Assembly (NCBI GenBank): GCA_029907255.1
Contig: JARYMF010000012.1
Coordinates: 1 to 64,000 of the forward strand
Length of the DNA: 64,000 nucleotides
From: Armatimonadota bacterium
GTDB lineage: Bacteria > Armatimonadota > UBA5829 > DTJY01
Reading direction: 5' to 3'
In this document: positions 37,801 through 53,326 of the stretch, one piece after another
Numbering within the stretch: the first letter of the stretch is position 1
Layout: each line of letters opens with the position of its first letter
Position numbers and translations under genes: made by a program
Notes under the pieces: generated by a model
What the model saw: only the letters and a program-made list of their open reading frames with translations
Told to the model about the DNA's origin: nothing
The model's database searches: none

Positions 37801-40800
37801 TTAGTCGTATACGACAATGTCGGATTGAACTCGCGGACGAAGAAGACGGTAGATATCCGAACCTGATTTCCAACATGAACTTATGCCAGTAACCACCACA
37901 TACTTGCCTACCTCAGGAGTTGAAAGACCACTGCGCAACACGCGGATGCCTGGATAGCCAGACGCATCCATTATTCCCGAGCCGTCATCTATGTAAAAAT
38001 AAGAATAAGATGGGTTGGAATAGGTTACTCGTCCCGTCGTGCAAACGAGGAGGCCTATGTTGCATGTCTGAGGAGAAGGTTTGCCTATCTTGTCACACAC
38101 TCCCCGCTGGCCTGCACCAGTTATTGGGTCATAGTTCCAATCGCCGCCGCCTAGGTCGCGGTTTGAAAGCAAGAGGGGTTCAACTGTGCCGGTATTATCG
38201 GGGGGCGGCGATTGTTCGGCTGTTATTGCTTCTATATACCTTTCGCCATTTGAGTTTGTCTTCATTGTGCCGACGACATTAACCCGCATTCCAGTTTGGA
38301 GTCCATGATATGGCTTTGAAACGGCAATTCCACATCGGCGGTCGTCAGCTTCGATATAGAAAAGGCTGGACCATGAGGCAGAGATAATTGCCCTATCGAT
38401 GGCAACTATTTCATCATTTGGCAAGCTCTTTGCGGTTTCGATTCCAATTCTGGGAAGCATGGTGAATCTAATCGCTTGATTGTTCGAGAGCAGTGTACTG
38501 CCATTATAGGAATACTTGCATGCCATGTTTCCGGATGAGTTTTCGATTCCAATTGTCGCACTTCGTCCTGCTCCGCAATTAGTATCGTCAGGCTGGACCT
38601 CGAGATACTGGAAGACTATGTCGTTCAAGTTCTCATATAGAACAACTTGGAATGTGAACGGCTTTGAGGGTGTGGAGTAGTGGGGTACGCCAACCCAGCT
38701 TATTACAAATCGGCGGTTGGGCGAAGTGCCTTCAGTGCCAACCTTCACACTGCCAGCGGCAGATGGGTCTAAATCATCCCAATAGGGGTAAAGTACTGCA
38801 TTTGGTGCGGCCGGGTTAGGTATATCCGTGTTCGAAAACGCATCAAGGCCATTGTTTAGGAACCCTATCATACCGTTTGCTGCCACATAAAGTTGAGTGT
38901 ATGCTGTGCCGTAAAAGGTGAAAGTAAACGGTATTGTCAGGGCTGGGGTAACGCCGTCATCGGAAAGAGTATATGTTGTATGGTTAGTTGGGTCTATCCA
39001 ATTTATTGGTATGGTTTCCATGCGGTAGTTCTTTGCTATTTCGAGTTTTACGTTTCGGGTTCCGCCACCATCGCCATTAGTTGTGTTTGTAAATGTCACC
39101 GTATCATTGTAAATCCCAACCGGCAGGGTTGCCGCCTCTGCCCCGATGGATACAATCACGTCCTCGCTTGCCCCGGGCTCGAGATTACCGGAAGTTTTGG
39201 AAAGGGTAATCCATGACGCTGTCTTGGTGGCATTCCAATCCAGGCTTGAATAGCCGATGTTGGTTAGGGTGTAGGTAATGCTGGAAGGGTAAAATGGTCC
39301 ACCAGGTTCTCCTATTGATTCGAAAGCGGTGTCTGGGCTTACCCGTAGGCTGCCATCTCGCACAGTTAGAATGATATTTCGAGTGGTGCTACCTACGCCA
39401 TTGGTTGTGTTTAGGAAAGTAATCGTATCGGAGTATACGCCGGCGGGTAAGCTGTTTGCATTTAAGTTAACCGAAGCCACAACGTTCGTACTTTCGGCAG
39501 GTTCAAGAGTGCCATTTTCGCTGGATAAACTAACCCAAGGCTGGGTCTTGCTTGCGCTCCAATTGATGGTTAAGTTGCTGTTGTTTGTTAGAGTGTAGGT
39601 GTGGCTTGGCGGGTTAAATGGCCCACCAACCGGTCCATATGAGAACGTTTCTGAAGTTGGCGTGACCGACAAGCCGATTGCATCTGTTGTAAAGGCTTTT
39701 AAGCAGACGTTCGCATTGGAAACGTAATTAGTGATGTCATTCCATGATGTTCCATCGCTGCTAACATAACTCTCGCCGCTGTTTGCTGTTGCAGCGCTCG
39801 AGTATCCTGGGAATGGGTGTTCGTATGGAATCGGCCAGTTGTACTCGGGTGTCGTTAGCTTTACTACAACCGAGAATTTTTCACCAATCGTAAGTTGAAC
39901 CGGCGAATCCAAGGAGATTGTTTGGTACCCGGCGTTCGCTAGACTGCCAACCTTGCTTGCGACAGGGCCACTTGGGTTGATTGGTCCGGATGTTGGGTTG
40001 AGGTAGATATATATTTCGTAGCTGGAGTTTGGCGAAGCAGCATAAAAACTAACGGCCGCGAGATAATCGCTAGTGGCTGCAGTGAAGACATTAGCAAACC
40101 AGCCAGTTGTGTTGCCGTAACCAAGGCTTGATACCCAGCCGAGGGGGTCATATTGATAGACTTGTTTGAAGTTAGTTGTTGGCTCTGCAGAGCGGAAGAG
40201 AGCATTATCGGTGCCAATGCAAGTGTCGTAATATGAAATATAAAGGTATCCGTTCGAACCCCAGCTTGTGCCCCAACTATTTTTGATGATGAAGGCGCCA
40301 TTACCGGGAGGGGTGATGTAGAAGTTGCTTGCTGGATAGTTGTCATCCCATCCCACAATGCACACCGCATGGTTGCTTACTCCCATGCCGTTGAAATAGT
40401 ATGCGCAGGTCGAGGAATTATAATAGTAGGAGCTCCAATAGAAGGTTGTATATACCGCTCCATAGGTCATTACAGCCTGCTTAATGTTGTCATTGTCGAG
40501 TGGTCCCGCCCTGTCTGGAATAAAATCAACTGCTTGGACATGTTTTCGAATTGCAAGCCCTGTTGGTGATGTGCAGCTTGAGGCGTTATAGATATCGTCT
40601 CCTTCGATGATTGGGCCATTCCAGCGCGCAAGATATGCTGTTGACATCCAATGATTGCCGCCTGCACAGCATGTTGGGTCAAAGCCATGTTGGTTCTTTA
40701 AGTTATTCTCTGAAAAATCCCATGTTTCATTAGGAAGGAGGCAAGACTCCATTGAGCCATAAGTTGCGAACGCCCAGCAGCTTCCGCAGGAACCTTGGTC

Positions 40801-41118
40801 TCTTATTGGGGTAACCTTCCCGAGATTTCGCAGGTCAAATGACGATGGGAATCCTACTAGAGTGCGAGCGGTTGAGATGCGTTCTCCTTTAGAGTGTGAA
40901 AGGTCGAGTGGCGGTGGTATAAGGCCTGTTGCGATGCTTTGGTTGGCTTCGGAACTCACCAGAGCGGTCTCTTGAAAATATCTCAGGAACGCAGGATTAG
41001 GCGGGGCAGTCGTGGGGATGCTTTCTGTTTGCGAGCTGGCAGGGGCTACGGCGTTCAAACAAAGCAAAATTAAGGAAAGAAAAACTGCCCTTTGTATTCG
41101 AGGAACTTTAAGCCTCAT
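37801..41118 (-). CDS. Very large exported C1A (papain-like) cysteine protease with lectin-like and BACON-like domains
   Basis: 1105 residues. A signal peptide (AVFLSLILLCLNAVAPASS) and propeptide-like segment precede a papain domain: Gln108/Cys114 in RDQGSCGSCWAFATYGSM, His250 in GVSNHAVCIVGWDDN and Asn280 in FIIKNSWGTSWG. A lectin-like domain (about 310-475) follows, then two repeats of about 105 residues (from SVTPTSETFSYGPVGGPF and RVSPDTAFESIGEPGGPF) like BACON modules. Next is a beta domain (LYVAANGMIGFLNNG) seen in secreted proteases, and a C-terminal OB-like region (IVAIDRAIISASWSSLFYIE). It probably degrades extracellular protein, with the modules binding glycans or protein. It has its own consensus promoter. 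Confidence 0.88.
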   Translation of the reverse strand: MRLKVPRIQRAVFLSLILLCLNAVAPASSQTESIPTTAPPNPAFLRYFQETALVSSEANQSIATGLIPPPLDLSHSKGERISTARTLVGFPSSFDLRNLGKVTPIRDQGSCGSCWAFATYGSMESCLLPNETWDFSENNLKNQHGFDPTCCAGGNHWMSTAYLARWNGPIIEGDDIYNASSCTSPTGLAIRKHVQAVDFIPDRAGPLDNDNIKQAVMTYGAVYTTFYWSSYYYNSSTCAYYFNGMGVSNHAVCIVGWDDNYPASNFYITPPGNGAFIIKNSWGTSWGSNGYLYISYYDTCIGTDNALFRSAEPTTNFKQVYQYDPLGWVSSLGYGNTTGWFANVFTAATSDYLAAVSFYAASPNSSYEIYIYLNPTSGPINPSGPVASKVGSLANAGYQTISLDSPVQLTIGEKFSVVVKLTTPEYNWPIPYEHPFPGYSSAATANSGESYVSSDGTSWNDITNYVSNANVCLKAFTTDAIGLSVTPTSETFSYGPVGGPFNPPSHTYTLTNNSNLTINWSASKTQPWVSLSSENGTLEPAESTNVVASVNLNANSLPAGVYSDTITFLNTTNGVGSTTRNIILTVRDGSLRVSPDTAFESIGEPGGPFYPSSITYTLTNIGYSSLDWNATKTASWITLSKTSGNLEPGASEDVIVSIGAEAATLPVGIYNDTVTFTNTTNGDGGGTRNVKLEIAKNYRMETIPINWIDPTNHTTYTLSDDGVTPALTIPFTFTFYGTAYTQLYVAANGMIGFLNNGLDAFSNTDIPNPAAPNAVLYPYWDDLDPSAAGSVKVGTEGTSPNRRFVISWVGVPHYSTPSKPFTFQVVLYENLNDIVFQYLEVQPDDTNCGAGRSATIGIENSSGNMACKYSYNGSTLLSNNQAIRFTMLPRIGIETAKSLPNDEIVAIDRAIISASWSSLFYIEADDRRCGIAVSKPYHGLQTGMRVNVVGTMKTNSNGERYIEAITAEQSPPPDNTGTVEPLLLSNRDLGGGDWNYDPITGAGQRGVCDKIGKPSPQTCNIGLLVCTTGRVTYSNPSYSYFYIDDGSGIMDASGYPGIRVLRSGLSTPEVGKYVVVTGISSCWKSGSDIYRLLRPRVQSDIVVYD

Positions 41119-41182: not shown

Positions 41183-41295
41183 GTAAGCAATCAGAAAACT
41201 AGTATAAATATTTGGGTATTTATGCTCTAAAGTTTTTCCTGCGCATTGCCAGAATGAAGGTTGAGCGATTTCTCGTTCGTTGAAAGGGGATCCTG

Positions 41296-41940
41296 GTGAA
41301 CATTTTACTGCGCAGGATATTTGCCGCTTTTGTATTTGCCGGCATGCTCATCGTCTTGCTTACCTTAACGGCACACGCCCAGGGTTGGAATTCTGCGGTT
41401 ACAAGTGGCCTTACGTCAGTAACTTGGAAATTTGCTGAAGGTGAATATACATGGACTCTTTTTAATAACTCCTCCCTCCCTGGAGATGCTTGTCGTGAGT
41501 ACGATGTTTTGATTTGGGAATTAATTCCTTTTCAGGTGGAGGAACCACTTTCTTGGGTGGCTCCTGAAGGCTGGACATGGAGCGGCAACAAATTTAAAAT
41601 CGCAGACTCAAGCAAGAAATACTTTACACCATGTGCAATAGGGCCAGGGCAATCTGCTGTCTTTAGATATAAACCAAAGCCCAACGGTAAGCTAATCAAC
41701 AGTAATGGTCCGCAGCCAGTTGGCTTGGCATTCGTTACCCATGTTGCAGCGGTTGTTTCTGGGTCGGGAGCGCTTGACGGCAGTCGCCCTTGGATTCCGA
41801 AGTTCACTCAGCATGGCTCAACATGGTTTGATGAATCGAATATGGCGGCAGTTCCTGAACCAGCAGGCTTGGGAATTCTCGCCTTTTATGTTGGGGCTTT
41901 TACTTTATATTCTTTATATTGGAGGAATCGCTTAGGATAG
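41296..41940 (+). CDS. PEP-CTERM surface protein
   Basis: 214 residues from GTG 41296 (AAAGGGGA upstream). A signal peptide (IFAAFVFAGMLIVLLTLTAHA) is followed by about 155 residues of beta-rich mature protein (SVTWKFAEGEYTWTLFNNSS). The C-terminus is the tripartite PEP-CTERM signal: AVPEPAGLG, a hydrophobic helix (ILAFYVGAFTLYSLYW) and a basic tail RNRLG. Known PEP-CTERM proteins are cut and anchored by exosortase (EpsH family) and are linked to exopolysaccharide production. No exosortase gene is in the window. The mature part matches no family I know. Confidence 0.8.
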   Translation: MNILLRRIFAAFVFAGMLIVLLTLTAHAQGWNSAVTSGLTSVTWKFAEGEYTWTLFNNSSLPGDACREYDVLIWELIPFQVEEPLSWVAPEGWTWSGNKFKIADSSKKYFTPCAIGPGQSAVFRYKPKPNGKLINSNGPQPVGLAFVTHVAAVVSGSGALDGSRPWIPKFTQHGSTWFDESNMAAVPEPAGLGILAFYVGAFTLYSLYWRNRLG

Positions 41941-41957
41941 GCAATAGCCGCCAGCCA

Positions 41958-44039
41958 TCATTCAATTTTGTGTTCTCCTGCCCAAATGCGCACATACTCA
42001 ATTAGCCCGCTATATGGAATTGATTTCGAGTAGCTGCCGACCAAGCTTCCTGTATCCATACCGATTTGTAGACCTTCGTGCGGTTTGGCAGGAAGAAGTC
42101 CCGCATTCCCCGTGGATGCAACTAGCTTGCCGTCTACGTACAGCTCGATGCCATGTTTTCTAATGGCTGCCGTGAGGCGTACCCAGTCGTTGCCTATTGG
42201 GTTGTTCCCTGCAATTTCCGTTAAGGTTTCCTCTGACCTCAATGCAAATCGAGGGATGCCGCCATCGAGATAGAGGGAGTAGCCAAAACTTGCGCCTCCC
42301 TGAGCAATGACGACGCCTTCCTTGCCTTTGATGAGCGCTTCAATTGTCCATGGCGTCATGCAAGGATTGAGGGCGGGTGAACTTGAAACGTCAATATAAT
42401 CCCCTTTTTCAAGCTTGAGGACTTTTCTGCCGCCTTCTTCTACAAATTGTCCGCCGTGTAGAATGCCCTTGTTTCCATGCCCAGACACATCAGTCGCATC
42501 GCCGCGAGCAAAGTCAAAGGAAAGCACAAGCCCCTCGATTACCTTAGCTTCTTCTATGGGCCCCACTGGCGGCGCTCCCAACTGTTTACCTTCTGGATAT
42601 TCTGTTTCCTTCTTTAATCGCTCAAGCTCAGCACGCATTTCCTGTAGTTTCTCCAGATGTGCCGAATCTAGAGCAAGGTTGCGAACCTGAGTCGGGTCAT
42701 TTCGAAGGTCATATAGCTCCTCAATATCGTTCATATCGGGATAAGAACAGTATGTCCAATCTTTTGAACGAACTCCTAGCATTAAGGGTATTCCTGCTGC
42801 CCATTCTTCTCGGAAATATTCGTATAGGAATGACTCGCGCCACTCACTTTTCTTGCCTTTTAGGATTGGTAGGATTGAACGCCCCTGCATTGTTTTGGGA
42901 ATGTCTACTCCTGCTATATCAAGGAGTGTTGGAGCAAGGTCTATGTTAAGAAACATTTCTTTTCTCTTGCTTCCAGGTTTTATTATCTCTGGGTAGCGCA
43001 TAAGAAGTGGGATGCGAATTGATTCTTCATATATCAATCGCTTGTCTCCCAAGCCATGCTCGCCCATGAAGAAGCCATTGTCGCTTGCAAAGACAATAAC
43101 GGTGTTATCAAGCTGACCAGTCTTCTCAAGGGTATCAAGTACTCGTCCCACGCTTTCATCAATAGCTAGTATCGTTCTGTAGTAATCTAGCCGCCTTGGC
43201 TCGCGAGGGTTCCATTCACCCCGTTCGACCTTTTGGGGGGCGGGCTCTTTCAGGCTTGCAATCCACCGCTCTCGCCTGACTCCGAACGTAAACGCTCGCC
43301 GCATCCACTCGGGTTTGTCCTCGAACGTGTCCTTGTAGCTTGCGGGTTCTGGAATCTCGGCGTTGGGGAATGCGTCTTTGTGCCTGGGCGCAGGGGTAAA
43401 TGGACTATGAACTGCTTTGTGTGCAAGTATCATGCAGAAGGGCTTGCTCCTCTTGCGTTTTAGCCAATTGACGGCGTAGTTGGTTAGTAAGTCGGTCATA
43501 TAACCTTCTGCTTGAAACTCATGTCCGTTTTCGTTAAGGTTTGGGTTTTCGTATATGCCCTGAGCCTTAAAGCTGAGCCAATAGTCGAAACCTGGTCGGG
43601 GGTCAGCCTTCGGTTCCATATGCCACTTGCCAATGTATGCTGTTTCATAGCCGGCTTTTTGAAGGAGAAGAGGGAACGTTGGACATGAGGGGTCTGGGTC
43701 ATTAGCTTCATTATTCACAACGCCATGCCTATGGGCATAGGTGCCAGTTAAAAATGAGGCGCGGCTTGGCGAGCACAGCGCAGTGGTTACGAATGCGTTT
43801 TCAAAGTGAGCGCCTTCACGAGCGATGCGGTCGAGGTTTGGCGTCTTTAGAAATGATGGCCGGCCCATGAAGCCCATGGCGTCGTATCGCTGGTCATCGG
43901 TTAATATAAATAGGATGTTTGGTCGCTTTTCCCCGAATGCAGGTCTTGATAATGAGAGCCCTGTTGTAAGTGTTCCGATGGCCGCGGCTCCTTTTACGAC
44001 GAACTCTCGTCTAGTCATTTTGCATGATTGTTTGCCCAT
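41958..44039 (-). CDS. Secreted arylsulfatase with C-terminal LamG-like domain
   Basis: 693 residues; GGAGG lies eight bases upstream. A Tat-type signal (TRREFVVKGAAAIGTLTTG) suggests export in folded form. Metal-site aspartates lie in NILFILTDDQRYDAMG, and the sulfatase signature CSPSRASFLTG begins at Cys89, the residue converted to formylglycine. Later family motifs are GKWHMEPK, VFASDNGFFMGEHGLGDKR and LRNDPTQVRNLA. Residues about 500-690 form a concanavalin/LamG-like domain (LVLSFDFARGDATDVSGHGN, and ELYVDGKLVASTG). It removes sulfate esters, probably from a sulfated glycan. It follows the LacI gene by 28 bp in the leftward GH-LacI-sulfatase operon. An activating enzyme is not seen here. 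Confidence 0.92.
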   Translation of the reverse strand: MGKQSCKMTRREFVVKGAAAIGTLTTGLSLSRPAFGEKRPNILFILTDDQRYDAMGFMGRPSFLKTPNLDRIAREGAHFENAFVTTALCSPSRASFLTGTYAHRHGVVNNEANDPDPSCPTFPLLLQKAGYETAYIGKWHMEPKADPRPGFDYWLSFKAQGIYENPNLNENGHEFQAEGYMTDLLTNYAVNWLKRKRSKPFCMILAHKAVHSPFTPAPRHKDAFPNAEIPEPASYKDTFEDKPEWMRRAFTFGVRRERWIASLKEPAPQKVERGEWNPREPRRLDYYRTILAIDESVGRVLDTLEKTGQLDNTVIVFASDNGFFMGEHGLGDKRLIYEESIRIPLLMRYPEIIKPGSKRKEMFLNIDLAPTLLDIAGVDIPKTMQGRSILPILKGKKSEWRESFLYEYFREEWAAGIPLMLGVRSKDWTYCSYPDMNDIEELYDLRNDPTQVRNLALDSAHLEKLQEMRAELERLKKETEYPEGKQLGAPPVGPIEEAKVIEGLVLSFDFARGDATDVSGHGNKGILHGGQFVEEGGRKVLKLEKGDYIDVSSSPALNPCMTPWTIEALIKGKEGVVIAQGGASFGYSLYLDGGIPRFALRSEETLTEIAGNNPIGNDWVRLTAAIRKHGIELYVDGKLVASTGNAGLLPAKPHEGLQIGMDTGSLVGSYSKSIPYSGLIEYVRIWAGEHKIE

Positions 44040-44067
44040 TATTGATTCCTCCTTTTTATTCAGACGC

Positions 44068-45099
44068 CTATGGAGCGGGACCGGTTGATTCTCGGATAAT
44101 CAGTTCGCCGGGGATGTATATATTCGCTCTTTTGGCGTTTGGGTTGTTTCGCAGCCGCACAATCTCATTTACTGCACTTTCTGCGACCAAATCCGCAGAA
44201 AGGCCAACGGTGGTGAGGGAGGGGTGCCAGTACTCACCTTCATCAAACGCTCCGTAACCGGCGAATGAGATATCGCGTGGACATTGCATGCCCATGAACT
44301 GGGCGCAAGCCATGGCGCCAAGTGCCATAGGGTCGTTTATGCAAATTACGGCGGTGAAATTCAGCTGGCGGGTAATAAGTTCTTGAAAACCCTGAAAGCC
44401 GCCGTCAAAGCCAAACCCTTCAACATTCTGCATGAGGCTGGGGTCAATATCAATTCCTGCCTCACGAAGCGCCCGTTCATAGCCGGCGTATTTCTGCATG
44501 GTGGTCTTTATGCGAGAGATTGTGTCCCCGATAAAAGCTATGCGCTGGTGTCCTAGTTCGATTAAGTGCCGCGTTAAGGTGTAGCCGGCGTGTTCGCGGT
44601 CTGCAGCGACGCTTTCGATGTTTCCTTGGGCGCCCGGAAGAAGATCAATCACGGGCAACCCCTCGTTGGCAAGCTGGGCTAGCGTGCTCTTTTCGACTGC
44701 TGGCGAATCCCACAGGACTAATAATCCTTCGTGGTTGCTAATCATGCTGTGATTCAAAAATGACTCTGCCTCGGAATCGTTTTTAACTATATTTACAGTA
44801 AGCTGAAGCCCTCGCATTGTTGCTGAGCGGCTGAGCGCCATTGCTGTCTGCGAATGTGACTTAGCCATTTGCCAAGTAACAATTAGCAAAAGAATAGTAT
44901 CGGTATGTCCGCGCTTGAGGGCTCGGCCTACTGGATTAAACTTATACCCTAATTCCTCCGCTGCAGCCCATACTCTGAGCTTTGTTTCTTTACTTATCCT
45001 CGAGGCGTGTTTACTGCCAGCGAGAACATATGACACTGTGGCGTGTGAAACCCCTGCTCTCCTGGCAACATCTTTAATTGTCGGTTGTGTTTTTGACAT
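44068..45099 (-). CDS. LacI-family transcriptional regulator of the saccharide locus
   Basis: 343 residues. The N-terminal helix-turn-helix (TIKDVARRAGVSHATVSYVL) and hinge helix (LGYKFNPVGRALKRG) precede a periplasmic-binding-like sensor domain (ILLLIVTWQMAKSHSQTAMA, then VICINDPMALGAMACAQFMG). It is expected to bind a sugar and control nearby transcription. It lies 48 bp after the GH gene and 28 bp before the sulfatase gene. Matching 16-bp imperfect palindromes with central CG, the style of LacI-family operators, lie in the divergent promoter region at 48181-48196 and 48285-48300. ATG 45099 has no clear ribosome site. Confidence 0.93.
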   Translation of the reverse strand: MSKTQPTIKDVARRAGVSHATVSYVLAGSKHASRISKETKLRVWAAAEELGYKFNPVGRALKRGHTDTILLLIVTWQMAKSHSQTAMALSRSATMRGLQLTVNIVKNDSEAESFLNHSMISNHEGLLVLWDSPAVEKSTLAQLANEGLPVIDLLPGAQGNIESVAADREHAGYTLTRHLIELGHQRIAFIGDTISRIKTTMQKYAGYERALREAGIDIDPSLMQNVEGFGFDGGFQGFQELITRQLNFTAVICINDPMALGAMACAQFMGMQCPRDISFAGYGAFDEGEYWHPSLTTVGLSADLVAESAVNEIVRLRNNPNAKRANIYIPGELIIRESTGPAP

Positions 45100-45147
45100 A
45101 GTTTTTGATTGAGTTTAAGAAAACTGAGTATTTATTTTCTACATATC

Positions 45148-48099
45148 TTATTGCCCAACTTCCGCTAGTACAGGCGTTACTGGTTTTAGTGTTCGCACCT
45201 TTGCCTGCCCACCGAGGGAAAGGAGATCTCGAGCCTGCAGAATTCTGGGGGACATTGGCTTATCCTCGGTAGTTTGTCTGCCTGATGAAACTATTCTTAC
45301 GTCCACCGGTTTCTCTAGAAGGTTCACCATGTTTATGACCGTTCGACTGCCGATTTTGGCAGGGAGCCATTCCACTCCCCATACCGGTTGGTTGGTTGAT
45401 GCATCTACAACGCGAATCTCGGGCAGTAAGTTCATATTATCAAGCAGTGAGAGCAGTTTGGGCCAGAGTTCTTTATCTGTGCTTGCATCGAGAGGAATAA
45501 TCACCGCCTGCTTAGAAAGCTGGGCGACTTCGTTATCGGGAAAGTCGTTTCCCCATGGGTCTTTAGATGGTGGGTTACCGAAGATGACGCATTGGCTGGA
45601 GGGCGGCAATTTAAGGAGGCTTTTAAAGGATGCCTCTGGCAGGTGGGTTGCATTTGGAAGCATGATGATTTGGTAATCACTTCCCTTGCCGGCAGCAAGT
45701 TGCTTTTCTGAAATGAAGTCAATCTTTATGCCGCAGAAGTTCAAGGCTGTGTAAGCTCTGGACATTGCATCTAGATATTGCTGGTTTCGGGCGATAGAAG
45801 TATTTGACCACAAAATCGCCACCGGCGCCTTAACGTTCTGCAGAGCCGTAACCTCAGCTGCAAAACGGTTTAGGTCTAGGCATGTGCGCCCGACGGCCTC
45901 TGCGCACCCCGGTCGGTCCATCACATTGCCATAGAAGTCCGAACCTTTATCATATGTCTTTTCCCATACCCAAATAGTGGTTGCTCCCTGGCCGTGGATT
46001 GCTCCTTGCCAAAGCGCTGTGCGGAAGTTCTCTGGCTTGATGTAATAATTCGAGCGGTCTGGGCTGATGTGGTTTTCTGAATTGAATATCGGCTTCTTGT
46101 TTAGTGAGCGCTGTAGGTCATAGCCGATATTCATTGAGCCCCAGGCGATTGTCTCGCCGCTTGGGAACGCGTAGTTGTCATTGCCGTTAATTTGTGAAAG
46201 TTCGCCAAAAAGCTCTGGGTCAACGCCCCATGCGATTGTGTACCTCGAAAGGAGTGCCGAGTCCATGATTTTTGCGTGCACAGGAACCTTTGGAGCCATT
46301 TCATGAATAACATCTGCTTTCCATTTGTGCCAGTTTGCAAAGCGCTCTTGGTTGAACACGACATAATCGTAGAATTGCGGCGCGTCATACTGGTCATTCG
46401 CAGGGATTGGCACTTCAGAAAAGCTTGAAAATTGGGTCTTGTACCGTGCGTTCAGCGTTGCAATGTCGCCATGTACTTTGGCAAGATATTCTGCCCACAT
46501 GGCTGGTGTGTTATCGCAGCCGGCGGCACGGTCGAAAATAGGCTCATTTGAGAGACAAAAGCTGTGGAGAGCCGGTTTGTCTTTGAATAGAGGGACAACC
46601 GTTCGAAGAAACTTCTCTATTATTTGTTTTGCTTCGGGTGCATCCACACAGTATCCAAAGAATCCACCGCCGCCTTTCATTAAATGTGGCCATTTCTGGT
46701 ATGCCCAACCTGGGAAGTAGTGCGGCGAGAGGAGAATATTTACCATCACATTGTTCTTTGCCGCTTGGTCAAGAACATTCACAATATCTTGCGCAGGCTT
46801 GAGATTGACCTCATTTTCCGAGGGGAAAACAGCGCTAGGACCAATCTCAATTTGAATGATGTTCACGCCGTAGCCTGGCCAACGAGGCATATCTGTCCTC
46901 ACTTGGCCAAAGTGCCCATAGCCGCAGAAAAAGACTGGACCTCGGCTCTTCTTGCCACTTGAATCTTGCCTATCGCCAATAAAGCTCAAGCCCTTTATCT
47001 CAACCTTACTCGTGCGATATCTAACAGCGTTTGGTGCAAGTTTTGGATTTTTGAGATATGCCTGCATCTCCGCCATGGCATTGTCGAGTGAGCGATTAAA
47101 ATCGCCAACAGCCCAATTAGCCCGCGTTATCTCGCCCTTCTGTAAATCCATCCGTGCCAGCGGCAGGAATTGCTCAACCATGGTTCGCGTTACACGCGGA
47201 TAATCGAGGGGGATTCCTTTCATCTTGCACTTTTTATAGAGTGCATCGAAATCTTTGAGTTTAGCTTCAACCTTGTCCAAATCGGCAGAAATTGCCGAAC
47301 CGAGTTTCTCAATCTTTTTTGTTCCGGCAACAACCTTGCCTTTTTCATCCGAAATGGTTATGGTGCATTCGAGTTGTCTAACTGGTGCCTTGCCGCTGTT
47401 CCACTCCCATTCGAAAGAGTTTTCGCCCGGCTTTACTTGGGCGCTCTTTTTGAAAATGATTTCGCTCCCAGCGCGAATTGTAGCTTCGACGGTTGCTGTG
47501 CTTTTCCGTGTAGAATTGAGAAAGATAGCGACTGAGGCGGGAGCGTTGTCACCAATAACCGTGCCTGGCGCTAGAAACCAACCATTTATGCCTTTCGTTT
47601 CTAGTGGGGAACCGATGGGTTTGAGTGAAATGTCATCAATCGCTAGTTCATCGCATAAATTGACTACGTTGATACCAATGTTTAGGCTATTTTGGTCATT
47701 CTTTGTTCGAAACCTTGTGGATATTTTTTGCCAATCATAGCTACCAGTTGGGATGTTAAGGGTGTAAGAGTTCCAATCGGTGAAATGTATTGCGGATGAA
47801 ACATTTTTTCCCCGAACCCATACGCTCAATTCATACTCAGTTGCTGGCAATACGCCGATAACCTGGAATAATCTGCCATAGACCTCAGGTTCGAGAGGGC
47901 TCTCATTATGGAAGACAATGCATTGCCTGCCTGAGTAAGGATTTTCCTTGCTTACAGCATATGTGCATTTGGCTCTGGAATACCATCCCCAACCTGCACT
48001 GCCTTCTTCGAATCCAGGATTGGCTATAACGGGTATTACACCTGCCGCGGCTAGCCTGGCGAGTGCTAGACAAGACAAAATTACTGTTAGAATTCGCAT
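45148..48099 (-). CDS. Secreted GH-A clan glycoside hydrolase (GH42-like) with N-terminal CBM-like domain
   Basis: 983 residues from ATG 48099 (GGAGG six bases upstream; a longer frame to 48210 would run through the promoter). A signal peptide ends at about 20 (ALARLAAAG). Residues 22-163 form a carbohydrate-binding jelly-roll (VIANPGFEEGSAGWGWY, then ELAIDDISLKP). The barrel (about 370-770) has acid/base E519 in FCLSNEPIFD and nucleophile E675 in KPIFNSENHISP, as in GH42 and related GH-A enzymes. A glutamine-amidotransferase-like trimerisation domain follows (QIIMLPNATHLPEASFKSLL). Beta-galactosidase-type activity is possible; the substrate is not determined. It is first in the operon with LacI and sulfatase. 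Confidence 0.87.
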   Translation of the reverse strand: MRILTVILSCLALARLAAAGVIPVIANPGFEEGSAGWGWYSRAKCTYAVSKENPYSGRQCIVFHNESPLEPEVYGRLFQVIGVLPATEYELSVWVRGKNVSSAIHFTDWNSYTLNIPTGSYDWQKISTRFRTKNDQNSLNIGINVVNLCDELAIDDISLKPIGSPLETKGINGWFLAPGTVIGDNAPASVAIFLNSTRKSTATVEATIRAGSEIIFKKSAQVKPGENSFEWEWNSGKAPVRQLECTITISDEKGKVVAGTKKIEKLGSAISADLDKVEAKLKDFDALYKKCKMKGIPLDYPRVTRTMVEQFLPLARMDLQKGEITRANWAVGDFNRSLDNAMAEMQAYLKNPKLAPNAVRYRTSKVEIKGLSFIGDRQDSSGKKSRGPVFFCGYGHFGQVRTDMPRWPGYGVNIIQIEIGPSAVFPSENEVNLKPAQDIVNVLDQAAKNNVMVNILLSPHYFPGWAYQKWPHLMKGGGGFFGYCVDAPEAKQIIEKFLRTVVPLFKDKPALHSFCLSNEPIFDRAAGCDNTPAMWAEYLAKVHGDIATLNARYKTQFSSFSEVPIPANDQYDAPQFYDYVVFNQERFANWHKWKADVIHEMAPKVPVHAKIMDSALLSRYTIAWGVDPELFGELSQINGNDNYAFPSGETIAWGSMNIGYDLQRSLNKKPIFNSENHISPDRSNYYIKPENFRTALWQGAIHGQGATTIWVWEKTYDKGSDFYGNVMDRPGCAEAVGRTCLDLNRFAAEVTALQNVKAPVAILWSNTSIARNQQYLDAMSRAYTALNFCGIKIDFISEKQLAAGKGSDYQIIMLPNATHLPEASFKSLLKLPPSSQCVIFGNPPSKDPWGNDFPDNEVAQLSKQAVIIPLDASTDKELWPKLLSLLDNMNLLPEIRVVDASTNQPVWGVEWLPAKIGSRTVINMVNLLEKPVDVRIVSSGRQTTEDKPMSPRILQARDLLSLGGQAKVRTLKPVTPVLAEVGQ

Positions 48100-48180
48100 T
48101 TTTAACCTCCTTGATTGGCAATGCACGAAAAGACGAATGCCGGAAAAGTAAAAGCCCAAACTAGCATAACCTAGAGGTAT

Positions 48181-48196
48181 GGTGATTCGTGTAACC
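48181..48196 (-). promoter_or_regulatory. Putative LacI operator 1
   Basis: On the minus strand GGTTACACGAATCACC, an imperfect palindrome about a central CG, overlapping the expected start of the leftward GH transcript just after its -10 (48203-48198). The core TGGTTACACG recurs in operator 2. Confidence 0.6.
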
Positions 48197-48197
48197 A

Positions 48198-48226
48198 ACA
48201 ATACTCCCACTCGGTAAACTTGTCAA
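48198..48226 (-). promoter_or_regulatory. Promoter for the GH-LacI-sulfatase operon
   Basis: Minus strand TTGACA (48226-48221), 17-bp spacer, TATTGT (48203-48198). The start falls within operator 1, about 90 bases before ATG 48099. Confidence 0.7.
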
Positions 48227-48240
48227 GCGTCTACAGATAC

Positions 48241-48270
48241 TTGACAACTCTCCAACCTCACGGCTAGAAT
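48241..48270 (+). promoter_or_regulatory. Promoter for the rightward GH gene
   Basis: TTGACA (48241-48246), 18-bp spacer, TAGAAT (48265-48270). Predicted start about 48277, eight bases before operator 2. Its -35 lies 14 bp from that of the leftward promoter. Confidence 0.7.
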
Positions 48271-48284
48271 GGGGATGAACGGCT

Positions 48285-48300
48285 GGTTACACGTTAAACT
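48285..48300 (+). promoter_or_regulatory. Putative LacI operator 2
   Basis: GGTTACACGTTAAACT, preceded by T, an imperfect palindrome about a central CG just downstream of the rightward transcript start. It shares the ten bases TGGTTACACG with operator 1, each read along its own transcript. Confidence 0.6.
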
Positions 48301-48330
48301 ATTTACATCATACTTCGCGGAGTAAACCAA

Positions 48331-51162
48331 ATGAGCTTGCTCAACCGCATCATTTGGGCTACCACAGTCTTTGTCATATTGATTATGGAGCCCTCTGCTT
48401 TGGCTATACAGTCAATAGTGATTAGAAACAATCATGACCTGCCATACAAGGGGCCAGTTACCTTCCTTACGGATTCCGCAGATGGATATTTTGAGGCCAA
48501 AAATGGCATTGCAGAGGTAGCAAAGGGAAGGGCTTATGTGCTTATTGATATGCCCGGGCATTCGCAACTGCGCTTAACGCGAAAAGGAGATGGCCACCAA
48601 AAAGATAGTCTCCTTTTCCAAAGCATCCTCTCCGTGGAGCCGACGGCAAGCGGCCTTAGGCTTCTCTGCCGCGGCGTGGAGATAGGGCGCGTTGAGCTCG
48701 GGTTAGTGGTCGTGCCTGGCACGGAAGCCGGCACGGCCCACGCAGTGTCTTGCTTTGAACCGTTAAACTTCGAATTCAGGGGCAAACGATTGATAACTGG
48801 TAAGTGCCAGAACTCCGGCTATGACATCGAAATTTCGGTCATGCCATGCGCCGCTGGATTCATTGATTTTGATGCAAAACTTACTAGGGTGGAGGGCAAC
48901 TCGGAGAAGGCGTATGTTGCCCTTGTGAGGCGAGTTACAACACCCGGAATCGAGCACTTGAGAATGCGCTGGTGTGGGAAAGTTATCGAGGGTTCGGATG
49001 AACCAACCAAATACCACAGGAACTTCACAATGACCCATGGCGCCGATTGGTGCTCTTGGAAGGCGGGTGGTTTCCACTTTGCAGTAGTAAATGGCTTTGC
49101 GGCGGGATTGACCGCTGAGGAGAAACCGGGTCGCTGGATTGCCGTCAACAGCTACTACATCCGTGAGGCAGTCCGAAAAGATGGCGACAGCGTGTATTTG
49201 GTTTCCCAAATTGCTGGGCCAAGTCCCGAACAAGAGCGCACACGTTCACAGTTGCCAACTTCCTATGTTCCTCCCATAAAAGGTGAGCCAGTTCAACTGC
49301 GGTGGCGGCTGGTAATTGCTGAAAAGCCTAAGGTTGGGTGGGAGGATAGCCAACTATTTGTATATTCGGGTTTTCAGCGCGTGGTTGATTTGGGCGATAC
49401 TGTAATAGTTGACCTGGGTGTTCCATTTGTTGAGTTTGGAACAAGTTATTTCCCTTATTCGACTATGTGCGAGAACTTTGACTATTATCGAGTGTCTGGT
49501 CTTGACCGCGAAGGCTGGTGGCCCTTCTCGCCGAAGCTATGGAAAAAATGGCGGGATTTAACTCCTCAAATGAAGACCGACCTTCGAATCATTCGCTCGA
49601 TGGGTTTTGATTGGGTGCGCCTGCACCACTTGGAGCTTCTCGGCGAGATGGATAGAAAAGATGCACTAGCGTTTCTTGATTTCTACATGAGTGAGTGCCG
49701 CATGCTTGGGCTCAAAGTGTTGGTAGACACAGCAGGCTCGCCGGAATGGATGCAAACCATTGTCCGTCGGTATGGTGATGTTGTGAAGCGGGTTGAGTTG
49801 GAAAACGAAATTCTAATCCCAGGGATAAAACCAGGTGATGGAGAACGCTGGACTGCTCAGTACAATGCAATCAAGAAAGTTTCCCCTGATACGCAGGTTT
49901 TTCTCAGCGGCAACTGCAATGTTGGGATGTTTGATCGTCTCTTGCGGCTGGGAGTGCCTTTCGACCGCGCAGGATATCATTTCTACCAACACGGTCCAGA
50001 ATGGGACATCGCAACTTCGTCTATTGCACTTGCCATGGCAGGCTATGCCCGAACCATCTGCCGCGAGCCAACGCTTGGTGAGTTCAATTGGAAGATATTG
50101 ACCCGCTGGACTCCCGAAGCCCGAGCAAGGGAGTTTGCAAAGATATACGGCGGAATGCTCAAACCGAGAGCGATACCCGAATTTATGCAGTTCCACTGGC
50201 AGGAAACGCTGAGCGTGAATCCACGGCTTACTCGACAAGGCATTCGCCATTATGAGACAATCCATCTCGACCGCCGACCAAAACCAGAAGCGGTGGAGCT
50301 AATGGGGCTTATGCGGCGGTATGCACGGCCCGATTCTCCAATTCGCATGTTTCCAATAACAATTGGAGAGACAGTATTTAGGGACGGCAGAGCCACGGCT
50401 AATTTTACTATCGAGAACAAGACTAGTAGGACAATCTCGTTGAGGCTTTCGGCAGTTGCTTTCGGTGGTGTAAAATCGCGGCTGCTTACAGGGTCACAAG
50501 TTACCATTAAACCTGGTGGAAAGGCGGAGGGAAGTATCGAAATCTTGCTGATGCCCGGCGCGCAAGTCGGCACCTATCATCACTTCCTCAAGGTTGACTA
50601 CCCAGGAGGTAGTGCTTACGGCTGGGGAATTGCCTCTAATCAAGGGATGCCCAAGTTCAGCGACCCTATTTTGCCCGACCTCGTGGAGTATCCCCAGGGA
50701 CCTGGTGTTGTTAAGCAATTTGATTATGCCCATCCCATAACTGTTGCATTTGGCAAGGATTCGCCAGCGCAGGAATTGGAAATGGCTTACCAAATCTTCA
50801 ATACTCTCCAATCTGCGACAGGCAGATTACTCTACTTGTGCAGTGTTGAGGATTTGCCTAAAGAGCGGATAGCGAACGATAATCTAATTTTAGTTGGCAC
50901 TCCGAAAACAAACATATTGATAGGCAATCTATCACAAAGCATTCCTAAAGACAAAGGAGTGGTCATACTTCATAATGCTAGCAATGGCCGCCAGTGGCTA
51001 ATTCTTACAGGCGAGTCAAAGGAATCTGTTGCGGCGGCTGCGACTGATTTCACCTTGAGGTATTGGGTGAACGCAAAGGATTCCGTTATTAGGATAGCTG
51101 GCATGGAAAAAGGTGCCGCCCTGGGAAACCGCGCTAAGCCTGGGGAAGTTAATATGCCTTAA
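48331..51162 (+). CDS. Large secreted GH-A-like glycoside hydrolase, unassigned family
   Basis: 943 residues with a signal peptide (IIWATTVFVILIMEPSALA). Residues about 30-340 are beta-rich and look like a galactose-mutarotase-type supersandwich. A TIM barrel (about 370-660) follows, with YYRVSGLDREGWWPFSP and LRIIRSMGFDWVRLHHLELL. The pair E493 in VELENEILIPG and E584 in EPTLGEFNWKI sits where GH-A acid/base and nucleophile fall. The C-terminal 270 residues contain an NEW-type beta domain and a small alpha/beta domain (DNLILVGTPKTNILIGNLSQ). Substrate unknown. It is divergent from the GH42-like gene and appears under the same operator. Confidence 0.8.
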   Translation: MSLLNRIIWATTVFVILIMEPSALAIQSIVIRNNHDLPYKGPVTFLTDSADGYFEAKNGIAEVAKGRAYVLIDMPGHSQLRLTRKGDGHQKDSLLFQSILSVEPTASGLRLLCRGVEIGRVELGLVVVPGTEAGTAHAVSCFEPLNFEFRGKRLITGKCQNSGYDIEISVMPCAAGFIDFDAKLTRVEGNSEKAYVALVRRVTTPGIEHLRMRWCGKVIEGSDEPTKYHRNFTMTHGADWCSWKAGGFHFAVVNGFAAGLTAEEKPGRWIAVNSYYIREAVRKDGDSVYLVSQIAGPSPEQERTRSQLPTSYVPPIKGEPVQLRWRLVIAEKPKVGWEDSQLFVYSGFQRVVDLGDTVIVDLGVPFVEFGTSYFPYSTMCENFDYYRVSGLDREGWWPFSPKLWKKWRDLTPQMKTDLRIIRSMGFDWVRLHHLELLGEMDRKDALAFLDFYMSECRMLGLKVLVDTAGSPEWMQTIVRRYGDVVKRVELENEILIPGIKPGDGERWTAQYNAIKKVSPDTQVFLSGNCNVGMFDRLLRLGVPFDRAGYHFYQHGPEWDIATSSIALAMAGYARTICREPTLGEFNWKILTRWTPEARAREFAKIYGGMLKPRAIPEFMQFHWQETLSVNPRLTRQGIRHYETIHLDRRPKPEAVELMGLMRRYARPDSPIRMFPITIGETVFRDGRATANFTIENKTSRTISLRLSAVAFGGVKSRLLTGSQVTIKPGGKAEGSIEILLMPGAQVGTYHHFLKVDYPGGSAYGWGIASNQGMPKFSDPILPDLVEYPQGPGVVKQFDYAHPITVAFGKDSPAQELEMAYQIFNTLQSATGRLLYLCSVEDLPKERIANDNLILVGTPKTNILIGNLSQSIPKDKGVVILHNASNGRQWLILTGESKESVAAAATDFTLRYWVNAKDSVIRIAGMEKGAALGNRAKPGEVNMP

Positions 51163-51233
51163 AAAATTAGCGTTGGCTTTTTCGAAATTAGAATAGCCTT
51201 CCGCAACTTTTCCAAAAAAGTAAGGAGCAACAG

Positions 51234-52271
51234 ATGAGAAAAGACCAATTCGAGCAATTGAAGGCGATTGTGCAAGGAGCAAAGATCAAGCCTCCAGTAG
51301 CATTATTAGTTGACAGCCCTTGGATTCCGCCGTTTGTGGGAATAGAGGCAATGGAATACTTCACCGAACCTGATAAATGGCTGGAGGCGAACCTGCACGT
51401 TGTCGAGCGCTTCCCTGATGTGATATTTATACCAGGCTTTTGGGTGGAATACGGAATGGCGATTGAGCCCTCTGCGCACGGGTGCAAAGTATCATGGTGG
51501 AAGGATTCTCCACCTTCGGTTTCGCCTGTGCTCTCCGACATCTCTGAGGTCAGCCGGCTAACAGTGCCATCGCCGCAAAATGACGGACTAATGCCGTTTG
51601 TGCTGCATCTTCAGCGGCGTGCTCAAGAACAAATTGCCCCAATGGGGTATTCAATTCGCATAGTCTCTGCACGAGGTCCGCTCGCACTTGCAACATTCAT
51701 TCGGGGGATTACCGAGTTCCTGATAGACATAAAAATTGAACCTGAGAACTCGCATCGTTTGCTCGATATTTGCACTGAAACCGTAATCCGCTGGTTGGAT
51801 GCCCAAGCAAAGAACTTGCCCGATGTTGAGGCAATTTTTGTTCTTGATGACATAGTAGGTCTTTTATCACCAGCTGACTACGAAGAGTTCGCCCACCCAT
51901 ATCTTAAGCGAATATTTGATGCTTTTAATGGCATGCTCAAACTCTATCACAATGATGCGAATATTGAGCCATTTGCCGAGCGCCTGGCAGAAACGGGATT
52001 CGATATCTTGAATTTCAGCCATCTAATAGACGCTGGCGAACTCTATCGGCGGATTGGAGACAAGGTAGTCCTAATGGGAAATGTTCCGCCTCTTCAGGTG
52101 ATGGCAGAGGGGACGCCGGAGCAGGTGAGAGAAAGCGCCAAGCGAGCGCTTGATGGGACTGGGGGGCGCATAATACTCTCCGCTGGCGGCGGCACGAATC
52201 CCGGCACATCAGCTGAGAATATAGATGCTCTTGTCCAAGCGGCGCGGGAGTGGTCAGAAAGCCATGGCTAG
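51234..52271 (+). CDS. Uroporphyrinogen decarboxylase-family (MtaA/CmuA-like) protein
   Basis: 345 residues; AAGGAG precedes ATG 51234. The URO-D fold is seen in ISEVSRLTVPSPQND, RIVSARGPLALATFIRG, YEEFAHPYLKRIFDAF, LKLYHNDANIEPFAERLAET and VVLMGNVPPLQVMAEGTPEQ, with GRIILSAGGGTNPGTSAEN at the end. Heme-type HemE has FxGxPxT and RQAGR motifs, which are absent. The sequence instead resembles cobamide-dependent methyltransferase relatives, with LYHNDAN at the position of their zinc/substrate histidine. Such genes often sit near glycosidase genes in Planctomycetes-like and Armatimonadota-like genomes, and removal of O-methyl groups has been proposed. It lies 71 bp after the GH gene and is probably cotranscribed. 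Confidence 0.8.
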   Translation: MRKDQFEQLKAIVQGAKIKPPVALLVDSPWIPPFVGIEAMEYFTEPDKWLEANLHVVERFPDVIFIPGFWVEYGMAIEPSAHGCKVSWWKDSPPSVSPVLSDISEVSRLTVPSPQNDGLMPFVLHLQRRAQEQIAPMGYSIRIVSARGPLALATFIRGITEFLIDIKIEPENSHRLLDICTETVIRWLDAQAKNLPDVEAIFVLDDIVGLLSPADYEEFAHPYLKRIFDAFNGMLKLYHNDANIEPFAERLAETGFDILNFSHLIDAGELYRRIGDKVVLMGNVPPLQVMAEGTPEQVRESAKRALDGTGGRIILSAGGGTNPGTSAENIDALVQAAREWSESHG

Positions 52272-52279
52272 TTTTGCCG

Positions 52280-53326
52280 CTAGTTGCTTGATGCGTGCCT
52301 TGGATATCTCTTTCCGAGGAATTTCATCCCTGCAAGAACGATTACAATAGCTTGGATAACCGTGACTATCTCCTTTGGCGTTTCGGTGATTAGCTGCATA
52401 CTTACCGCGCCATTTCTCAGCGCACCGAAGAGGAGTGCTGAAAGCGCTGTTCCGACGGCAGTGTTATTACCGAGAAGAGCGACAGCGATGCTGTCGAAAC
52501 CATATCCGGGGGAGAATTGGTCATAGAACCGATGGTGTACCCCTAGAACTTCGACTGCGCCTGCGAGTCCTGCTAGCCCGCCGCTAAATAACATAGCAAG
52601 CACAATCATCCCTGGCACATTTATGCCGGATGCTCGGGCGGCGTCCTGGTTAGTGCCTACCACCTTTAGTTCATAGCCGACTACCGTGCGATTCATTAGG
52701 AATGCAAAGCCGATAACGCCAAGAACTGCTATAAGAATTCCCCAATGTGCGCCTCCGAGGCTACCTAAAAAAGCGGTTGGCTGAATTTCGGGCGTCTGCG
52801 GCGCCATTGAGTTGGGGTCTTGAAATTGGTTGGTTACAAGGTAGTGAGTTAGGAAAAAGGCTATGTAGTTAAGCATGATTGTAGTGATGACCTCATGCAC
52901 ACCGCGTTTTGCCTTTAGCAAGCCAGGCAGGAAGCCCCAAAGTGCACCGCCAAAGATTCCCGCAATGAGGCATAAGGGGGTATGCAAAGGCGCTGGCAGT
53001 TTTAGAGTGTAGCCAGCCAACGCTGCCGCAAGCCCGCCGATTAGGAGCTGACCCTCTACGCCAATGTTGAAAATCCCCGCACGGAGACCTAGTGCTACCG
53101 CCAGCCCAGCAAGCGTAAGTGGGATTGCCTTGACAATGGTTTCGCAGACTGCCGGAACACTTCCAAATGCGCCCGAGAACATTGCGCCAAATGCGGCAAA
53201 GGGATTTTCTCCTGATGCTAGGATAACTATCGCACCAATCCCAAATGCAATTCCCAGCGTTGCCAATGGATTGCCAGCCGCATGCAAGAAAGGCGACAAC
53301 CTGTTAATTATGGGGGCGCTCTTCAT
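52280..53326 (-). CDS. ABC transporter permease, BPD_transp_2 family (nucleoside/sugar type)
   Basis: 348 residues with nine or ten membrane helices. Landmarks are LAGLAVALGLRAGIFNIGVEGQLLIGG, typical of YufP/NupP-type permeases of the Bmp/simple-sugar class, then NYIAFFLTHYLV and GYGFDSIAVALLGNNTAVGT. In the family, two different permeases pair with a double ATPase and a lipoprotein binding protein to import nucleosides or sugars. It overlaps the ATPase gene by four bases (ATGA). The second permease is not adjacent: its usual place is taken by the convergent UroD-like gene. Confidence 0.9.
   Translation of the reverse strand: MKSAPIINRLSPFLHAAGNPLATLGIAFGIGAIVILASGENPFAAFGAMFSGAFGSVPAVCETIVKAIPLTLAGLAVALGLRAGIFNIGVEGQLLIGGLAAALAGYTLKLPAPLHTPLCLIAGIFGGALWGFLPGLLKAKRGVHEVITTIMLNYIAFFLTHYLVTNQFQDPNSMAPQTPEIQPTAFLGSLGGAHWGILIAVLGVIGFAFLMNRTVVGYELKVVGTNQDAARASGINVPGMIVLAMLFSGGLAGLAGAVEVLGVHHRFYDQFSPGYGFDSIAVALLGNNTAVGTALSALLFGALRNGAVSMQLITETPKEIVTVIQAIVIVLAGMKFLGKRYPRHASSN

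Follow-up and report, generated by a model that had tools for sequence, protein, structure and literature searches.

A predicted LacI-family operator at two divergent promoters of a carbohydrate-degradation locus in Armatimonadota

Regulators of the LacI family act on local sugar-utilization targets, and more than one binding site is common in the divergent intergenic regions they control (Ravcheev et al. 2014, PMC4052901). The part of that survey considered here describes an even palindrome with a central CG as the operator form of 1173 of 1303 regulators, reports peaks of intersite distance at 13, 22 and 32 bp, and lists ExuR, KdgR, UxaR and UxuR as LacI-family hexuronate regulators (its Table 1). 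We analyzed a 64,000-nucleotide stretch of an Armatimonadota genome (the window), in which a divergent intergenic region separates two operons (Table 1). The locus resembles these local regulators in its CG-centered even palindromes, its divergon layout and its local sugar targets; unlike the distances of the survey's peaks, its intersite distance is longer, at 104 bp. Neither the operator word predicted here, GGTTACACGTGTAACC, nor this orthologous group was found in that part of the survey, and literature searches on LacI regulation in Armatimonadota returned nothing relevant. The layout is that of a textbook LacI-family divergon; the operator word, the regulator group and the regulon appear to be new predictions, seemingly undescribed in the literature searched. 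Our analysis suggests that the region is very probably a divergon under the LacI-family protein of the leftward operon, which would bind GGTTACACGTGTAACC, with both operons derepressed by a sugar.

Table 1. Predicted features of the divergent locus (window coordinates)
Feature	Coordinates	Strand	Basis
Divergent intergenic region	48100-48330		
Leftward promoter, TTGACA-17-TATTGT	48198-48226	-	Direct reading and consensus scan
Rightward promoter, TTGACA-18-TAGAAT	48241-48270	+	Direct reading and consensus scan
Predicted operator OL, GGTTACACGAATCACC on the minus strand (forward GGTGATTCGTGTAACC)	48181-48196	-	Matrices from relatives
Predicted operator OR, GGTTACACGTTAAACT	48285-48300	+	Matrices from relatives
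Leftward gene 1, exported GH42-like protein with CBM4_9 domain, 983 aa	45148-48099	-	Pfam
Leftward gene 2, LacI-family repressor, 343 aa, helix VSHATVSYVL	44068-45099	-	Pfam
Leftward gene 3, sulfatase (PF00884, SGSH_C and Laminin_G_3; CSPSR motif)	41958-44039	-	Pfam
Rightward gene 1, exported 943-aa protein (P0003)	48331-51162	+	Orthologues in G001, G003, G004, G007 and G019
UroD-like protein (PF01208)	51234-52271	+	Pfam

The original prediction had placed two exported glycosidases, a sulfatase, the repressor itself and a UroD-like protein under common control. Pfam matches bore this out for the GH42-like/CBM4_9, LacI, sulfatase and UroD-like proteins; the second supposed glycosidase, P0003, is without a family match. 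The lacI gene begins 48 bp past the GH42-like gene and the sulfatase gene 28 bp past lacI, and no terminator-like site lies between these three genes on the minus strand, so co-transcription is likely. GGAGGTT precedes the ATG of the GH42-like gene; a longer open reading frame starting at 48210 was rejected as the gene start because it begins upstream of the expected transcript start. P0003 has no Pfam or NCBIfam match, and a profile search of PDB structures found no relative. A structure prediction from a two-row alignment reached a pLDDT of 40.6, too low to use, and the locus context would suggest a glycosidase. The corresponding exported family of 943-986 aa, likewise lacking Pfam, NCBIfam and PDB relatives, occurs in Armatimonadota and in one Verrucomicrobiota MAG (L133:10058-13018). 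The best NCBIfam matches of the UroD-like protein were MtaA/CmuA-type methyltransferases, all below cut-off. Next to the locus, a minus-strand gene (37801-41118) encodes an exported C1 protease of the papain type that carries Lectin_like and BACON-like repeats.

Direct reading and a consensus scan placed both promoters, both copies of the 10-mer TGGTTACACG and the weak CG-centered 16-bp dyads where they had originally been claimed. The leftward promoter has its −35 box at 48226-48221 and its −10 box at 48203-48198, and TGGTTACACG (48197-48188) abuts the −10 box with no gap. On the rightward side (−35 box at 48241-48246, −10 box at 48265-48270), TGGTTACACG lies 13 bases past the −10 box (48284-48293). 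The two −35 boxes are 14 bases apart. A sigma-70-like consensus scan of 41200-52500 ranked the rightward promoter top (11/12), with the leftward promoter within the next three matches (10/12). With the transcript start assumed 7 bases past the −10 box, OL spans about −5 to +11 of the leftward promoter and OR about +9 to +24 of the rightward one. Each dyad has one perfect and one degenerate half of GGTTACACGTGTAACC, with only 5/8 complementary pairs, so symmetry within the window alone is weak evidence; these two sites are the least symmetric of the operator set.

The genome-wide scan found TGGTTACACG to be rare: the 3.23-Mb genome contains it exactly three times, twice in the divergent region and once within a coding sequence. 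Matches with one mismatch were fewer than for a reversed-pattern control (69 vs 213), and the 16-mer with up to three mismatches was not enriched (7 vs 14 in the control). In a search through 64 kb, a 10-mer appearing twice within one intergenic region would be only mildly unlikely. What makes the sites significant is the comparison with relatives; the window alone would not suffice.

We compared the window genome (G000; 3,232,393 bases) with G001 of the same genus, G003 and G004 of the same family (completeness 99% and 97%), and G007 and G019 of other families of the same class. The whole locus region is 97% identical between G000 and G001; this is too similar, and site conservation between these two was discarded as evidence. 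Orthologues of both the 943-aa and the GH42-like protein are present in all five relatives. LacI orthologues were found in G001 (97% identical to the window protein), G019 (57%) and G007 (55%), and none in G003 or G004, where the nearest LacI is at most 32% identical and the LacI proteins inspected are of the STATVSR type. A genome-collection scan with the window LacI alone gave no match; the aligned LacI set gave 11 loci. Matrix scoring covered the window and selected locus stretches; at the scale of whole genomes, the searches used patterns alone.

Between promoter and start of the 943-aa orthologue, G019 carries an exact TGGTTACACG and G007 carries AGGTTACACGAGCAACC. In G007, two divergent promoters also carry the twin sites GGTTACTCGTGTAAGC and AGTGACACGTGTAACT, and a further exported protein is preceded by GGTTACTCGTGTAACT. 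These sites are stronger than those of the window and combine to the consensus palindrome GGTTACACGTGTAACC; their position relative to the −10 box is similar across G000, G019 and G007. A symmetry-only search of G007 for CG-centered palindromes returned two intergenic sites with shared sequence. When the 64-kb window was scored with a matrix of these two alone, the highest values fell at 48182 (15.1) and 48286 (14.4), ahead of 11.95 for the next position; in the G019 stretch, the two divergent-region sites likewise took the top two ranks. A fuller matrix of seven sites, none from G000 or G001, placed OR first and OL second in the window (18.1 and 16.5 vs next 10.7). First-order random sequence totaling 9.6 Mb contained two scores of at least 16.5, and in none of 1000 trials did a matrix with permuted arms place its two best scores in the region. 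Knowledge of the G000 word guided the recognition of most G007 and G019 sites, a circularity that the two-palindrome matrix largely avoids.

Upstream of the same genes in G003 and G004, matrix scoring found no sites despite the retained GH orthologues (best score ≤4.4 vs 16.5-21.0 in G000, G007 and G019). In G004 both divergent consensus promoters persist with no site on either, so the promoters do not need the word. G003 and G004 are more closely related to G000 than are G007 and G019, so site presence follows the LacI gene, not descent. This comparative analysis establishes the presence of the predicted sites, their position and their dependence on LacI. The sites recur at the G019 and G007 promoters, are gone where LacI is gone, and vary with the recognition helix, as expected of the LacI-family repressor that had been proposed for both promoters.

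The helix VSHATVSY occurs in all four genomes with GTTACACG. Verrucomicrobiota LacI homologues (51-54% identical) with the helix VSLSTVSY or VSPSTVSY have adjacent GTTAAACG-type palindromes; a LacI tree places these proteins in a supported clade and joins it to the SHATVSY proteins, separate from the other paralogues. GTTAAACGTTTAAC-like, GTTAAACGTT(T/A) palindromes lie just downstream of the Verrucomicrobiota lacI, before the next gene (L133:5772, L134:11126 and L137:11133), and at a fourth locus (L135) the best GTTAAACGTTTAAC-like match is ~3.3 kb before lacI. These data support an operator word that would change with the recognition helix of the LacI homologue. Several more distant LacI paralogues of the class have CG-centered palindromes of their own in the divergent region beside the gene: GTAATACGTCTTAC (L067:1675), TTAATACGTATTAC (L074:7047), GTGATACGTTTCAC (L068:8546), GTTGGACGTCCAAC (L069:1419) and CTGAAACGTTTCAG (L072:6986).

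The window LacI matches PF00356 (61.4 bits, cut-off 27) and PF13377 (99.5 bits), and thus has a helix-turn-helix and a periplasmic-binding-protein-like ligand domain. Its nearest solved relative over the whole length is PurR of Escherichia coli (1jft and others; phmmer, 135 bits). As in PurR, there is no tetramerization tail, and the helix-turn-helix and hinge leucine align (the L of ALK with the SLK hinge); in PurR and LacI structures this leucine inserts into the operator at its central CpG step. The window protein differs from PurR in its recognition residues (H,A for T,T), its operator word and its sugar rather than purine context. We infer that the repressor binds CG-centered GGTTACACGTGTAACC, most likely as a PurR-like dimer, and sterically represses both starts, and that a sugar relieves this. 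Sitting on the start region of each promoter, it would block polymerase binding or early elongation, so that the exported carbohydrate-degrading genes stay off until sugar appears. The substrate of the exported enzymes would then yield an intracellular sugar that acts on the C-terminal domain of the repressor and derepresses both operons. The repressor had also been expected to control its own gene. A site does lie upstream of the lacI operon in G000 and G001, and none lies upstream of lacI in G019 or G007, where the gene stands apart; autoregulation is thus plausible in this genus only.

Pattern searches of 25 genomes (~83 Mb) with GGTTACWCGNNNAAC returned 13 matches, six of them at LacI-linked loci or at uronate genes of the carriers (one each in G000, G001 and G019, three in G007). 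OR is the sole intergenic match in G000. Of these three G007 matches, two belong to the LacI cluster and the third precedes a KDPG aldolase-KDG kinase operon (C34); a seventh match, also in G007, lies ahead of a GH2 gene, and the remainder are scattered singles. A shift control with one extra base between the half-sites, GGTTACWCGNNNNAAC, gave six matches in the 25 genomes and none in LacI loci. MFS permeases adjoin site-bearing genes in G007 and G019. The G007 sites before the KDPG aldolase-KDG kinase operon and the GH2 gene make a hexuronate-type inducer the best guess, and we tentatively suggest, with low certainty, that the inducer may derive from such a sugar. Compared by target genes only, the system is like ExuR, KdgR, UxaR and UxuR in that the G007 orthologue apparently controls the KDPG aldolase-KDG kinase operon; it is unlike them in that the G000 targets are exported enzymes and a sulfatase, and neither pattern nor matrix finds a site at the KDPG aldolase-KDG kinase pair of G000 (L166).

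The other G000 matches to the 16-mer (up to three mismatches) all lie within coding genes except one at G000:C8:106905-106920 (L123:2406). This site, AGTTACACGTATAACT, forms an extended palindrome, with the gene of a DUF6263-like exported protein starting 40 bp downstream; it is conserved in G001 and also occurs at L124:2534 and at G007:C57:28953, near a contig end. The same repressor could act there, as at a third target, or the site could belong to another factor. A parS-like sequence, GTTTCACGTGAAAC, that scored well on the operator matrix was set aside as a false positive with recognizable parS sequence. It lies inside a ParB-like gene (G000:C9:87311-87324; L127:1812), and most related genomes searched have one copy.

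Could the repeated word be chance, or promoter-linked sequence without a regulator? The 5/8 symmetry of the window sites would allow it, and it would not be very improbable for one of the intergenic regions in 64 kb to contain the same 10-mer twice. Against this, matrices from other families of the class rank the two sites first and second of 64,000 positions, and the same promoters stand in G004 without the word, which leaves this explanation extremely improbable. It is very unlikely that the sites are real operators of a different regulator, either a LacI paralogue or an unrelated factor. Such a regulator would fit the position of lacI outside the operon of the site-bearing genes in G019 and G007, and G000 does encode a second LacI (G000:C2). 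That protein has the helix STATVSR, however, and is conserved in G003 and G004, where the sites are missing; the sites instead track the SHATVSY protein, in four genomes with it and two without.

A single repressor might also bind both sites and loop the DNA between them for cooperative repression, as had originally been suggested. The protein argues otherwise: it ends 4 residues beyond the LacI-core match, whereas 1lbg, aligned to 329/360, continues for 31 residues that include the ~30-residue tetramerization tail of LacI, and alignment to 1lbg found no C-terminal leucine-heptad tail in the window protein. Its nearest solved relatives are PurR chains. The centers of OL and OR, 104 bp apart (~9.9 helical turns), are in phase, with the same spacing in G001, but 142 bp (13.5 turns) separate the twin sites of G007. 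Each site, placed at a transcript start, would also be able to repress alone. We therefore consider looping unlikely and unnecessary, and favor steric repression at both starts by the LacI-family protein of the leftward operon.

The UroD/MtaA-like gene follows P0003 in G000, G003, G004 and G019 and lies beside lacI in G023 and G026. One speculative reading, which we regard as improbable, is that the LacI clade common to Armatimonadota and Verrucomicrobiota represents a regulator group, not yet described, that serves the use of acidic sulfated polysaccharides; the UroD/MtaA-like and 943-aa proteins would then form a new enzymatic step in that pathway, e.g., methylated or carboxylated sugar processing. 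Hardly any transcription factors of these phyla have been studied, and the predicted divergon would supply a specific operator and regulon for one of their LacI groups. It would also provide a natural helix-to-operator series for the LacI recognition code (VSHATVSY with GTTACACG, VSLSTVSY with GTTAAACG), and may tie exported enzymes of unknown substrate to hexuronate-type catabolism.
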